Assembly (NCBI GenBank): GCA_027488865.1
Contig: JAIYAU010000002.1
Span: 1 to 41,493, forward strand
Length of the DNA stretch: 41,493 nt
Direction: 5' to 3'
Source: Cytophagaceae bacterium
GTDB taxonomy: Bacteria; Bacteroidota; Bacteroidia; Cytophagales; UBA9547
Part shown: positions 2,629 through 41,378 of the stretch, piece after piece
How the letters are laid out: every line of letters begins with the position of its first letter
Numbering within the stretch: the stretch's first letter is position 1
Position numbers and translations under genes: made by a program
Notes under the pieces: model-generated
Databases searched by the model: none
The model's input: the letters and a program-made list of their open reading frames with translations, nothing else
Told to the model about the DNA's origin: nothing

Positions 2629-2856
2629 TTAAGGTAAATTCTTTTGCAGTAGGTATTTTATAACGTTACTGTTTTTAACCCTACGAGTAATCATGCTGTC
2701 GTGCTGATTGTGGCAGGGGTTACCAGTAACTTCTAGACAAAAATCTTCTTCTTGACCTAACAACGTGTGTACTTCACCTTCCACTCATACCTTACCGTCA
2801 ATTTTACCCATCCAAAACATATAAATACTACCCTTTTTAACATAATCTTTGGCAAG
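2629..2856 (-). pseudogene. Decayed ORF with in-frame stop
   Basis: The 490-base gap before the SGNH gene holds a minus-strand frame that reads like protein. It contains KKGSIYMFWMGKIDGKV, then a TGA at 2785-2787, then VEGEVHTLLGQEED, GNPCHNQHDSMITRRV and VIKYLLQKNLP before a TAA at 2629-2631. The charged, patterned composition and a Cys/His-rich centre look like a real domain, not chance translation. No ATG start is present upstream; the frame is closed by a TAG at 2857-2859. Either it is a pseudogene remnant, or a 52-residue protein starts at the GTG at 2784. I cannot name the family. Confidence 0.4.
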
Positions 2857-2883
2857 CTATATCAATAATGTACTTAGGTTTAT

Positions 2884-2891
2884 TAATTTTG
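2884..2891 (+). promoter_or_regulatory. Possible -7 element (TAATTTTG)
   Basis: TAATTTTG matches the Bacteroidota -7 consensus TAnnTTTG and ends 25 bases before the ATG of the SGNH gene. No good TTTG -33 box is found at the usual spacing, so support is partial. Confidence 0.35.
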
Positions 2892-2916
2892 CCTTTATAA
2901 TAGCCCAAATGAACTG

Positions 2917-3825
2917 ATGAGCCTGCGTAGTTTCTTTAAACATCCCTATCCTAAATTGTTAGTTTCAATGGTATTGATAGCTGCCAGCTTCGGAATATAT
3001 GCCTTTTCTCCTTGGTCGTTTAAAATTGCGGGATTAACAGTTAAAAAAATTGAGATAAACGAGCCTGAGGAAGAGCAAAATGATCTTGCAACTATATTAA
3101 ATGCCAACAAGGTTGACAAACGAATAGCTAAGGACACAACAAAAGCTAAAACCACTGCATCTACAAAAGCACAAATGGTGGTAGCGGCCTCACCAGCAGC
3201 CGAAAGCACTGCCATTGTCATAGACGAGCCCAATCGCGAGCCGCTCGACACCACCAAACAAATGATATTGCTTATTGGTGATTCGATGCAAGAAGGGTTA
3301 AGATTTAGACTTCAACAATATTGTCAAGAAAATGGGAGCGAGATGGTTTCGGTGATTTGGTATAGTTCATCGTCACACTGGTATGGCAACTGTGACACGC
3401 TTAGTTATTTTATCAAGAAATTTAAACCTACGTTGGTATTGCTGTCCCTAGGAGCCAATGAGCTTTTTGTGAATGATTTGAAAAAACGAGATCGTTATGT
3501 TAAACGCATCGTGAAACAAATGGAAGGGACTAAATTTATTTGGATTGGTCCACCTAATTGGAAAAAGGATACGGGCATTAACGAAATCATTCGTACTAAT
3601 GTGGGAGATTGTCGTTATTATCCTTCCAAAAATCTTAAGATGGCCAGGGCAAAAGATGGTGCACATCCCACCAAAGCGGCTTCTAAGGTGTGGATGGATT
3701 CGGTAGCTACTTTTATAGTTAAAAAAAGTTGTTATCCTATCAAGCTGGCTTTACCAAGTTCCAACAAGAAGTCAATTCCGCACACCATCATTTTAAAACC
3801 CAATCCACCGCCGTCGGTCATATAG
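2917..3825 (+). CDS. SGNH/GDSL-family hydrolase, membrane-anchored
   Basis: This 302-residue protein has a single N-terminal membrane segment (about residues 13-31) and a linker rich in Lys, Thr and Ala to about residue 110. The SGNH domain follows, with the nucleophile in GDSM (S123), the GANE block (residues 179-182) and the catalytic Asp/His in DGAHPT (D247, H250). It is therefore predicted to act in the periplasm as an acyl esterase or acyl-transferring partner. In Bacteroidota such proteins commonly sit beside MBOAT acyltransferases, and one ends at 707 on the same strand; two inverted genes have come between them. Its last 8 bases overlap the end of the convergent sirtuin gene. Confidence 0.8.
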   Translation: MSLRSFFKHPYPKLLVSMVLIAASFGIYAFSPWSFKIAGLTVKKIEINEPEEEQNDLATILNANKVDKRIAKDTTKAKTTASTKAQMVVAASPAAESTAIVIDEPNREPLDTTKQMILLIGDSMQEGLRFRLQQYCQENGSEMVSVIWYSSSSHWYGNCDTLSYFIKKFKPTLVLLSLGANELFVNDLKKRDRYVKRIVKQMEGTKFIWIGPPNWKKDTGINEIIRTNVGDCRYYPSKNLKMARAKDGAHPTKAASKVWMDSVATFIVKKSCYPIKLALPSSNKKSIPHTIILKPNPPPSVI

Positions 3826-38892: not shown

Positions 38893-39771
38893 ATGATGAT
38901 ACATTGTACAAGCCCATCACATTGGGTTGACTATGAATTAATTGATGTGGGTAATTTTGAAAAGTTGGAGCGATTTGGCCTGTATGTGACTGCTCGGCCA
39001 GAGCCTCAAGCTGTGTGGGATAAATCATTGTCTGATGCCGAATGGCAAAAGTTAGCACATGCCACATTTAAACGTGACAAAACAAATCCAGAGAAGGGCG
39101 ACTGGATTCTTAAACCGAATATGCCTAGCCAATGGTTCATCAACTATAAACATGAAGATTTGGCACTAAGATTTAGGTTAGGGCTATCAGCTTTTAAACA
39201 TGTTGGCATTTTTCCAGAGCAGTCAGATAATTGGGATTACATTTTTGCAAAATGCAAAGCCATCAATCAACCAAAGGTTCTTAACTTATTTGCCTACACG
39301 GGTGGAGCCTCTTTAGCTGCTAGGGCGGCAGGAGCCTCTGTTACTCATGTAGACTCAGTTAAACAAGTTATTTCTTGGTCAAGAGAAAACATGGAGGCCA
39401 GCAAACTCGATAATATTCGTTGGGTGGTAGAAGATGCCTTAAAATTTGTACAGCGAGAGGTGAAAAGGGGGAATACCTACCACGGAATTATTATGGATCC
39501 ACCAGCTTACGGGAGAGGGCCTGATGGTGAAAAATGGGAACTGGAAGAAAACATTAATGAAATGTTAAAATTGTCCAAACAGTTATTACAACCTCAAAAT
39601 CACTTTTTTGTGATTAATTTATATTCCATGGGGTTTTCAGCACTAATACTTGATACGCTCATAAATCAAATTTTTGGCCAAGTTGACAACAAAGAACTAG
39701 GTGAGCTTTATATTAAAGATCGGTTTGATAAGAAATTGCCCTTAGGTATTTATCTACGATTTGCTTCATAA
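38893..39771 (+). CDS. Class I SAM-dependent methyltransferase (RlmI/RlmK-like)
   Basis: The 292-residue protein has the SAM-binding LNLFAYTGGASLAARAAGAS, an acidic strand end in THVDSVKQVISW, VVEDALKFV and the catalytic-type MDPPAYGRGPDGEKW, features of the PF10672 family that includes the 23S rRNA methyltransferases RlmI and RlmKL. No PUA domain precedes it, so the RNA target is uncertain. The start is ATG 38893 (a second ATG follows directly). No terminator is seen behind it before the Hen1 remnant. Confidence 0.85.
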   Translation: MMIHCTSPSHWVDYELIDVGNFEKLERFGLYVTARPEPQAVWDKSLSDAEWQKLAHATFKRDKTNPEKGDWILKPNMPSQWFINYKHEDLALRFRLGLSAFKHVGIFPEQSDNWDYIFAKCKAINQPKVLNLFAYTGGASLAARAAGASVTHVDSVKQVISWSRENMEASKLDNIRWVVEDALKFVQREVKRGNTYHGIIMDPPAYGRGPDGEKWELEENINEMLKLSKQLLQPQNHFFVINLYSMGFSALILDTLINQIFGQVDNKELGELYIKDRFDKKLPLGIYLRFAS

Positions 39772-39834
39772 AATAACGGTGAGTTTAAAAGAGCTTGAAT
39801 TTTGCCACCGCACGACAACGATAATATTGACCAA

Positions 39835-40059
39835 ATGATTTTAAATATTACGACCACTCATCAACCAGCGACTGACTTAGGATATTTGCTACATAAGCAT
39901 CCCGATAAATTTCAAACTTTGGAATTATCAGTTGGTAAAGCTCATGTGTACTATCCTGAAAAAAGTGAAGAGAAAACCACTATAAGCGTTTTGCTTGACA
40001 TTGACATGGTTCGTGGAACAAGAAATTTGGGTGGTGACGGCTTTGCTCTTGGCGCATAG
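39835..40059 (+). pseudogene. hen1: Hen1 (3'-terminal RNA ribose 2'-O-methyltransferase) N-terminal fragment
   Basis: From ATG 39835 the 74-residue product has ITTTHQPATDLGYLLHKHPD, ELSVGKAHVYYPEKSEE and ISVLLDIDMVRG, the conserved beginning of bacterial Hen1 (Hen1_L domain), which methylates the end of repaired RNA and works with the kinase-ligase Pnkp. It reads to GFALG and stops at TAG where relatives continue with QYVNDR. Full-length Hen1 is about 460 residues; the methyltransferase half and Pnkp are missing, so this is a remnant. A longer frame from 39802 adds residues that do not resemble the family. Confidence 0.75.
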
Positions 40060-40125
40060 CCAAAGAAATTAATCAGTAAGAAGGGAGAAAGATTTGTACA
40101 AAATGGCATCGGTGCGATACCTTAA

Positions 40126-40227
40126 TTCTCAAATCCGTTTTTTAGAACTATATCTTTTTCATTTGTAGACTTGGATAAGACAATGGACTTATACCTTCAA
40201 AACTTAAAACAAAAATTAAGCGAATAA
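40126..40227 (+). pseudogene. C-terminal tail of an unidentified gene
   Basis: After a TAA at 40123-40125 the frame reads FSNPFFRTISFSFVDLD, then KTMDLYLQNLKQKLSE and TAA. The coding-like run ends 1 base before the MGMT-family ATG, as if it were the last part of a gene co-transcribed with it. No start and no family can be given. It lies in the debris behind the Hen1 fragment and may be a small gene from ATG 40183 or chance. Confidence 0.25.
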
Positions 40228-40228
40228 A

Positions 40229-40645
40229 ATGGCAACAAAAAAAACCTGGTCTGAAAAATTGCATTGTGATAAAGAGCCAAAAATCAAACGAATTGATTTT
40301 GATTTTGCAGACATTACAGCAAATAGCACTATGTTTATTGCAACACCGCAAATAATCGACAATTACATCAAGCAAATACCAAAAGGTAAAAAAGTATCAG
40401 TTCAAACAATGCGGAAGGACCTTGCTATTGAAAACAGAGCTGACCATACTTGCCCGGTTACGACAGGAATATTTTTACGAATTGTAGCAGAAGCAAATTT
40501 TGAAAGATACCAACAAACGAATTCACTCAAAGACATTACACCATTTTGGAGAGTTGTAGAACCTAACTCGACACTTTCAAAAAAGTTAACATTTGGACAA
40601 GACTTTATAGTAAGCCAAAGACAATCGGAAAAAATAATTGACTAA
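40229..40645 (+). CDS. MGMT-family domain protein
   Basis: The 138-residue basic protein resembles the DNA-binding/active-site module of O6-alkylguanine-DNA alkyltransferases: IPKGKKVSVQTMRKDLA (a winged-helix-like region), then RADHTCPVTTGIFLRIVAEA, where the alkyl acceptor PCHR of the classic enzymes is replaced by TCPVTTG (C75 followed by Pro), and ITPFWRVVEP. Proteins like this are annotated as MGMT family; without PCHR, alkyl transfer is doubtful, though C75 might serve. It starts 1 base after the preceding stop, and its stop codon runs into a 19-base A tract. Low-GC codon use fits the accessory region. Confidence 0.6.
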   Translation: MATKKTWSEKLHCDKEPKIKRIDFDFADITANSTMFIATPQIIDNYIKQIPKGKKVSVQTMRKDLAIENRADHTCPVTTGIFLRIVAEANFERYQQTNSLKDITPFWRVVEPNSTLSKKLTFGQDFIVSQRQSEKIID

Positions 40646-40662
40646 AAAAAAAAAAAAAAAAA
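40644..40662. repeat. Homopolymer tract of 19 A
   Basis: An unbroken A19 overlaps the TAA stop of the MGMT-family gene (40643-40645). With the T16 tract at 41379-41394 it flanks the gene-free end of the window. Confidence 0.85.
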
Positions 40663-40991
40663 CAGCCACTAACAACTAAGTTTTCACTTGCTTGTATAAG
40701 CATTTACGAAGGCCATAGAAAATAAACTATTTGAGTAAACACTGTTTCATAGTTCAAAAACGAGAGTTTTTGAGACGGTTTGTGCGGCTGGTCGGTACAA
40801 GCTGTAATTATAGGCTGCTAGATTGTGAAGCAATAATTTCAACTATTTTTTAAAATATGGACATCAAAGATTATACTAGGCCAATATTGTTTAGTTGTAG
40901 GCCTAACCCCTCATCTGGGTTTAGGGGGCGTTTTCAGAATCAGGTTTTTTTAAGTAATGTCTTATTAGAAGATTGGGAGAGCTTCAGTCAT

Positions 40992-41109
40992 ATCAGCCTA
41001 TATACTTTCGTTCTATATCCTACGGTGTAGGTTTCTACTTCCTTTCTACTAGGGTTCTATGAGCTATCTATAAAGTGTATAATTGTGAATTGCTAATTGA
41101 CAATAGTGA
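40992..41109. repeat. 118-bp direct repeat, copy 1
   Basis: It begins ATCAGCCTATATACTTTCG and contains the CCTACGGTGTAGG hairpin and TTCTACTTCCTTTCTACTAG. It is nearly identical to 41163-41280, 171 bases downstream; differences include A/C in the ATATAC/ATCTAC and GAGCTA/GAGGTA positions. Confidence 0.85.
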
Positions 41110-41162
41110 GTGGATAATTGATAATTGTCAATTGTAAACAGGGTTTAGTGGTTATTCCTAAA

Positions 41163-41280
41163 ATCAGCCTATCTACTTTCGTTCTATATCCTATGGTGTA
41201 GGTTTCTACTTCCTTTCTACTAGGGTTCTATGAGGTATCTATAAAGTGTATAATTGTGAATTGCTAATTGACCATTGTGA
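41163..41280. repeat. 118-bp direct repeat, copy 2
   Basis: The second copy of the 40992-41109 element; its central hairpin reads CCTATGGTGTAGG. It is followed by a dense series of TTGATAATTG / TTGTGAATTG units to 41360. Confidence 0.85.
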
Positions 41281-41378
41281 ATTGAGAATTGATAATGGTA
41301 AATTGATAATTGTGAATTGATAATTGTCAATTGTAAACGGTAAATTGATAATTGAAAATAATTCAATCTTCAGGGGAC

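Follow-up and report, generated by a model that had tools for sequence, protein, structure and literature searches.

The window analysed here, 41,493 nucleotides in length, is the entire contig C4 of a draft assembly of a Cytophagaceae bacterium (genome G000; 4.33 Mb, 64 contigs, listed as 99.98% complete). Close to its right-hand end lies a scar at which the beginning of a hen1 gene, part of the bacterial Pnkp-Hen1 RNA repair system, meets the end of another gene. The features in and around the scar are as follows.

38893 to 39771, + strand: open gene of 292 codons for a class I SAM-dependent methyltransferase (RlmI/RlmK-like), left neighbour of the scar (PF10672, E 3.3e-12; NCBIfam matches all under their cut-offs).
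39787 to 39834, + strand: 48 bp of residual hen1 upstream region (39787 is where the blastn match to L037-L040 begins; comparison of upstream sequences by eye).
39835 to 40053, + strand: 5' fragment of hen1, 73 codons (PF12623; TIGR04074; PDB 4dqz; tblastn 91% to residues 1-76).
40003 to 40008, + strand: approximate place of a 9-nt in-frame deletion (codon alignment).
40054 to 40128, + strand: filler of about 76 bases with the premature stop at 40057-40059, no source match.
40129 to 40227, + strand: 3' end of a SRPBCC/polyketide-cyclase-like gene, the last ~32 codons and the stop, front missing (blastn to genome G361, locus L153; tblastn to L154).
40229 to 40645, + strand: open gene of 138 codons, family unassigned by profiles, in the same order after the SRPBCC-like gene in L153 and L154.

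The reading frame from the ATG at 39835 to the stop was confirmed in the window, and its Hen1 identity is not due to chance. Profile searches match it to the Pfam family Hen1_L (E 1.9e-25, positions 1-64 of 242) and to the NCBIfam family bacter_Hen1 (E 2.8e-25, 88.7 bits, positions 1-63 of 462), it matches residues 1-72 of the 230-residue chain of 4dqz, and it is about 91% identical in protein to intact Hen1 relatives. An earlier note on this DNA had described a Hen1 fragment of about 74 residues at 39835-40059. The fragment is real and its length nearly so: 73 codons are derived from hen1, and the last codon before the stop (Ala, 40054-40056) lies outside the homology. Alignment to intact relatives shows residues 1-76 minus three, the reading frame being preserved; a short repeat at this point in the intact genes leaves the phase of the 9-nt deletion ambiguous, and none of 114 aligned records (101 distinct) has a gap at residues 57-60 of Hen1. 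At the DNA level the homology with intact hen1 is confined to 39787-40052 (blastn against L037-L040) and takes in the 48 bp upstream of the ATG, which by eye correspond to the 3' half of an imperfect hairpin found in intact loci. What remains falls well short of a complete protein: the 88.7 bits compare with the 340 bits over 462 positions that the TIGR04074 equivalog cut-off requires, and the Hen1_L ligase-activating domain is covered over 1-64 of 242 positions, as against 1-241 in the intact gene of L040.

The remainder of the operon was not found. No further stretch of Hen1 is present in the 4.33 Mb assembly at E 0.001 in a profile search, and no Hen1 piece elsewhere in the genome could be put forward at that threshold; past the end of the homology the best tblastn match in the window, in any frame, is at chance level (E 1.5). 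This holds for the carboxy-terminal methyltransferase domain as well, for which later matches in the window are at chance level and the genome gives none at E 0.001. No Pnkp exceeds the family cut-off anywhere in the assembly, in the same operon as the fragment or outside it, and the best Pnkp match in the window (E 0.031, at 2184-2038) is far from the fragment. Two partial matches to the Pnkp profile in the genome, of 31.8 and 22.5 bits, were rejected as Pnkp, one being a T4 PNK/Pnkp1-like kinase-phosphatase and the other a metallophosphoesterase. A search for known RNA elements over the region returned one match only, at chance level (E 0.6). Significant homology thus stops inside the hen1 gene and the rest is not found, as in a pseudogene; the earlier note's statements that Pnkp is absent and that the fragment is a relic of a Pnkp-Hen1 system both stand, and the missing parts that it had proposed to look for in the genome were not found at these thresholds. 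Its suggestion of a sequence error at 40057-40059 is not supported, as the homology is already over at 40052 and later matches are at E 1.5 or worse. A sequencing error whose correction would restore hen1 was likewise rejected, since after 40053 only chance-level hen1 matches occur in any frame.

To the right of the fragment, the filler has no second copy in its own genome among the matches returned (40 of 107 candidates scored) and no blastn match better than E 0.15 in the fetched loci. The SRPBCC-like gene end that follows matches the last 31 residues of the L154 protein at 74%, and no earlier part of that gene was found in the window by tblastn; the L154 protein itself scores just below the PF10604 cut-off (E 1.1e-5, 26.2 bits against 27.4). 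A read-through search with 40060-40224 matched 4 of the 390 genomes of the order, own genome included. In G361 and G370 the query hits the final part of the SRPBCC-like gene, directly before a relative of the 138-codon gene, and in G132 there is a match with no 138-codon partner visible in the locus. DNA homology with G361 runs from 40129 to 40647 at 83%. The SRPBCC-like gene is thus truncated at the scar while its 138-codon partner is open and in the order seen in relatives. Because the G361 copy is also frame-broken, the damage to the SRPBCC-like gene need not date from the scar, and this gene may decay for reasons of its own. The 138-codon gene has a pN/pS of 0.18 against G361; its product has no Pfam, NCBIfam, PHROG or PDB match and is present in 9 of the 98 searched genomes, following the SRPBCC-like gene in L153 and L154.

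Two repeated elements lie between this gene and the contig end. A partly palindromic intergenic element at 40645-40901 recurs on contigs C23, C36, C43, C46, C59, C60 and C63 of the same genome, at eleven further places, some of them short, among 40 of 107 candidates scored, and contains no attC-like site by our hairpin scan. The second, at 40992-41305, contains a 143-base direct repeat (93%) and is related to sequences at or near the ends of contigs C15, C8, C41, C53, C44, C61 and C11, which is perhaps the reason that the contig stops there.

The hen1 DNA breaks off abruptly at 40052, inside the gene, and at 40129 the SRPBCC-like gene sets in just as abruptly, with only its 3' end. The truncation of two genes at one scar suggests a deletion and not a base error at 40057-40059. 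With a back-truncated hen1 meeting a front-truncated gene across filler, deletion is the simplest reading, the alternative being insertion of a hen1 piece; the two are not separable since no close genome lacking the event was found.

The nearest hen1 copies found, among the best 80 of 426 matches, are 90-92% identical in DNA and belong to Sphingobacteriales and Ignavibacteria; the close relatives are from Sphingobacterium pedocola (L037), two Ignavibacteria metagenome-assembled genomes (MAGs; L038 and L040) and a Sphingobacteriales MAG (L039). Only one of the nine other genomes of the same family (three of which are 68-84% complete) has a hen1 match, and that copy is less close, at 76% protein identity. 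The lost operon looks like a mobile, horizontally acquired module. Very probably the fragment is a pseudogene, left over from the 5' end of a hen1-pnkp operon that was acquired horizontally and then deleted. The operon would have arrived in the lineage by horizontal transfer, a single deletion with short filler would have taken out pnkp together with the remainder of hen1 and the first part of the SRPBCC-like gene, and the nine bases within hen1 would have been lost in a separate small slip. Such a loss may have been tolerable since hen1 and pnkp act together and the genome encodes further RNA-repair enzymes at other sites. Counted against a pseudogene are the frame that is still open, the 48 bp leader that is retained, the filler that is unexplained and the SRPBCC-like gene that is broken in G361 too.

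The substitutions in the fragment bear on its age. Compared with four relatives it carries eight private changes, 5 synonymous and 3 nonsynonymous, on 48 synonymous and 171 nonsynonymous sites (171/219), so nonsynonymous changes are fewer than neutral drift predicts (binomial 0.016, from only 8 changes). Most of the divergence would accordingly have arisen under constraint, and the stump may be young, its decay being recent, or still selected.

The hen1 upstream region and first codons might have been kept as a transcription source or leader for the 138-codon gene, the start of whose own operon would have been deleted, an idea that we regard as unlikely, though compatible with the pseudogene as best explanation. 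The 138-codon gene appears to be under purifying selection by its pN/pS, yet the gene before it is truncated; that ratio, however, is an average over the whole period of divergence from G361, most of which may precede the deletion. A promoter-like TTG-N17-TAATATTG begins at 39802, one mismatch away from the promoter consensus, and a stretch of 457 bases contains three one-mismatch matches of this kind where shuffles that preserve base composition only give an expectation of 0.3. None of the three is exact, and inspection by eye of the hen1 leaders of L041 and L044-L046 shows no conservation of the motif.

That the 74-residue product works as a stand-alone Hen1 N-terminal peptide, for instance by binding some ligase, is highly improbable. 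The ATG-started open frame, the 91% identity and the 5 to 3 ratio of private changes are what such a peptide would show. Yet the product covers only 64 of 242 Hen1_L positions, compared with the 230-residue solved N-terminal chain, and the residues that it has lost are never gapped in relatives; the genome has no match to the ligase part of Pnkp. Nor was a conserved 74-residue form seen: of the 89 matches across 390 genomes of the order, 10 have frames shorter than 440 codons, at assorted lengths of 59-279, and the three examined besides the window (G010, G023 and G114) break at other places. As the stub spans a quarter of the ligase-activating domain and lacks never-gapped residues, the separate use of the N-terminal domain that the earlier note had entertained is unlikely. 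The N-terminal domain of Hen1 has been described as switching on the Pnkp ligase (PMC4411300); with Pnkp missing, a quarter of this domain would be expected to be inert. Least likely of all is an intact hen1 that was mis-assembled or mis-sequenced: the assembly is a draft in 64 contigs and the fragment stops 1.4 kb from a contig end, which lies in a repeat common to several other contig ends, but a single contig spans both sides of the scar, no remainder of hen1 or pnkp is found in an assembly listed as nearly complete, and what follows on the right is not a frameshifted hen1 but a third gene, beside its partner and in the usual order.

The truncation in the window is not a unique event, as similar relics exist in other genomes. 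Among the 98 genomes searched, 25 (own included) have hen1 matches, 22 with frames of at least 443 codons and three broken (own, G010 and G023). Pnkp exceeds its cut-off in 20 of the 98, all within the 22 with hen1 of intact length, and in none of the three with broken hen1. Of the two remaining intact-hen1 genomes, G086 has a Pnkp that is interrupted close to the end of a contig, and G026, a draft in 720 contigs, gives no match. Against strict pairing are G025, with a distant 857-codon Pnkp relative under the cut-off, and G052 and G085, whose Pnkp matches lie in frames with one stop and are accompanied by no hen1 match. In these last two genomes (G052 C2:296486-297790 and G085 C4:100243-101556) the kinase-phosphatase half of Pnkp occurs alone, over profile positions 1-436 and 1-431.

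In the 390 genomes of the order, the ten frames shorter than 440 codons include one that runs to the end of its locus (G120) and two near a contig start (G229 and G307); the other seven are in G000, G010, G023, G114, G125, G178 and G331. The relics differ in what they retain: hen1 1-129 in G010, hen1 1-96 with two pnkp scraps in G023, hen1 1-147 with pnkp 594-858 in G114, and hen1 1-67 with pnkp 728-858 in L067. G002 has a relic of pnkp 787-851 about 3.5 kb from an intact pnkp. Since the query was the start of hen1, the many relics that retain the start are partly an effect of the search. In L067 (6001-6598) and L167 (1501-2749), internal deletions with different breakpoints have brought the beginning of hen1 right up to the end of pnkp.

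Of particular interest is the form in which the intact operon occurs. Intact hen1-pnkp DNA is a block of about 4.2 kb common to distant hosts with flanks that are unlike. More than 150 upstream bases are shared by six distinct loci (L037, L038, L040, L044, L045 and L046; L158, an identical upstream copy of L046, was left out), and when these are compared in pairs, the homology sets in at a common GTTA some 160 bases ahead of the ATG, or no more than a few bases away from it, with the exception of L037 against L040, where it extends to -204. Shorter upstream sequence is shared by L039, L041, L043, L047, L064 and L159, and none by L042, L048-L051, L055, L057, L059 and others. G370 and L046 (Pararhodonellum marinum, Cytophagales) have the same 400 bases upstream of hen1. 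After pnkp the shared sequence ends, by eye, in TAAC in L038, L040, L044 and L046, in TAAT in L045, and in neither in L037. In the window the homology starts at 39787, within the leader rather than at the GTTA, which means that the left end of the block is lost there too.

These boundaries resemble those of integron cassettes or of integrase-less attC clusters: a bounded block that starts at or close to GTTA and whose end, in five loci, is near TAAC or TAAT. The likeness is strongest in L040, where three 125-base hairpin sites with complementary outer ends lie on both sides of the hen1-pnkp block and part it from its neighbours, separating a GmrSD-type gene (HEC-05), hen1-pnkp and a SIR2 gene, all preceded by a TmtA-like gene. 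L044 has an attC-like hairpin upstream of the block. A home-made scan, as opposed to one with a curated attC model, covered 80 loci (825 kb, both strands) at score 12. Its 15 strand hits fall at 9 places in six of these loci (L040, L041, L044, L057, L059 and L064), with 0 hits in one round of block shuffles; at score 10.5 the shuffle background was 0.25 per round in L038 and L137, with means of 0 to 0.25 per locus. A stricter scan picked out two sites in L040 and one in L044, the 16 further hen1 loci that it covered giving none, while a looser one placed a hit inside pnkp of L041, probably by chance. No attC-like site was detected around the block in L037, L038, L045 or L046, though these share the GTTA start, or on either strand of the window. 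Seven stretches with the repeated intergenic elements of the own genome gave one attC-like hit, in L141, of another shape (77 nt).

Unlike in complete integrons, no integrase accompanies these blocks over the cut-off. None of eight genomes, four of them MAGs by title, encodes an IntI above the TIGR02249 cut-off, with partial matches of up to 123 bits in all eight; the own genome has five partial matches, none over the cut-off, and the stub in the window keeps neither end of the block. The genome of L038 (G099) has a broken integron-integrase-like gene at C1:3216962-3217763, about 19 kb from hen1-pnkp if G099:C1 is numbered like CP053447.1. Complete integrons have been reported in Ignavibacteriae (PMC9024848). 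Searches of 50,697 phage records gave no match, and none of 15 viral-contig pattern stretches encodes a relative; 17 of 72,556 plasmid records match, the best at 74%, so no close vehicle was found. The literature retrieved on integrons with Hen1 or Pnkp and on Hen1 transfer or pseudogenes does not, judging by titles and abstract openings, treat hen1-pnkp as a cassette or a relic.

Taken by locus, hen1-pnkp acts like a cassette in L040 and probably in L044, and membership of an integron is a candidate explanation. With slightly less than even confidence, we propose that the complete operon may travel as an integron-type cassette among Bacteroidota and Ignavibacteriota, can sit with anti-phage genes (L040, the one array examined), and is repeatedly gained and lost, leaving scars such as that in the window, which may also serve as leader for the next gene.

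The own genome is not devoid of RNA repair. It encodes RtcB and a pair at C5:18550-20524 (L003 399-2373; L035 1551-3525) in which a T4 Rnl1-type RNA ligase adjoins a Pnkp1/T4 PNK-like kinase-phosphatase. The ligase matches PF09511 (3.5e-19) and T4 ligase 1 (PDB 2c5u, 6.6e-17), and at 81 bits is below the T4 RnlA equivalog cut-off of 242 bits; the kinase-HAD phosphatase matches PF25109 (6.3e-51) and Pnkp1 (PDB 4xrp, 2e-62). The pair and RtcB may or may not cover the same damage as Pnkp-Hen1. The earlier note's reading of a lost Pnkp-Hen1 route is thus supported, with the qualification that what was lost looks like an acquired module and that the genome has other RNA-repair genes.

The fragment can be set beside two known systems. 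It shares with bacterial Pnkp-Hen1 (TIGR04074/TIGR04075) residues 1-76 of Hen1, less the three that are missing, and in its close intact relatives pnkp comes directly after hen1 (L037, L038 and L040-L049). L039, from the Sphingobacteriales MAG, has one gene between the two, a RhuM/Fic-domain gene at 2817-3803 (PADLOC candidate PDC-S23). Unlike that system, the stub lacks the methyltransferase domain and three quarters of the ligase-activating domain, and its genome lacks a Pnkp over the cut-off; hen1 and pnkp are always in a shared operon according to PMC4411300. The hybrid Pnkp1-Rnl-Hen1 complex, as described in the same paper, resembles the own genome in that the kinase/HAD-phosphatase is close to its Pnkp1, and differs in that the neighbouring ligase is of the T4 Rnl1 type and the Hen1 fragment of the classical Pnkp-Hen1 type.

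The stub itself is ordinary decay, a trace of operon loss; the cassette-like block is a lead worth following. Following up the stub gave evidence that Pnkp and Hen1 can act together as a compact mobile unit, which in one array has attC-like ends and lies next to defence genes. If this is true, the patchy spread of Pnkp-Hen1 would be easier to understand, and a role of the pair against ribotoxins or phage nucleases would fit.
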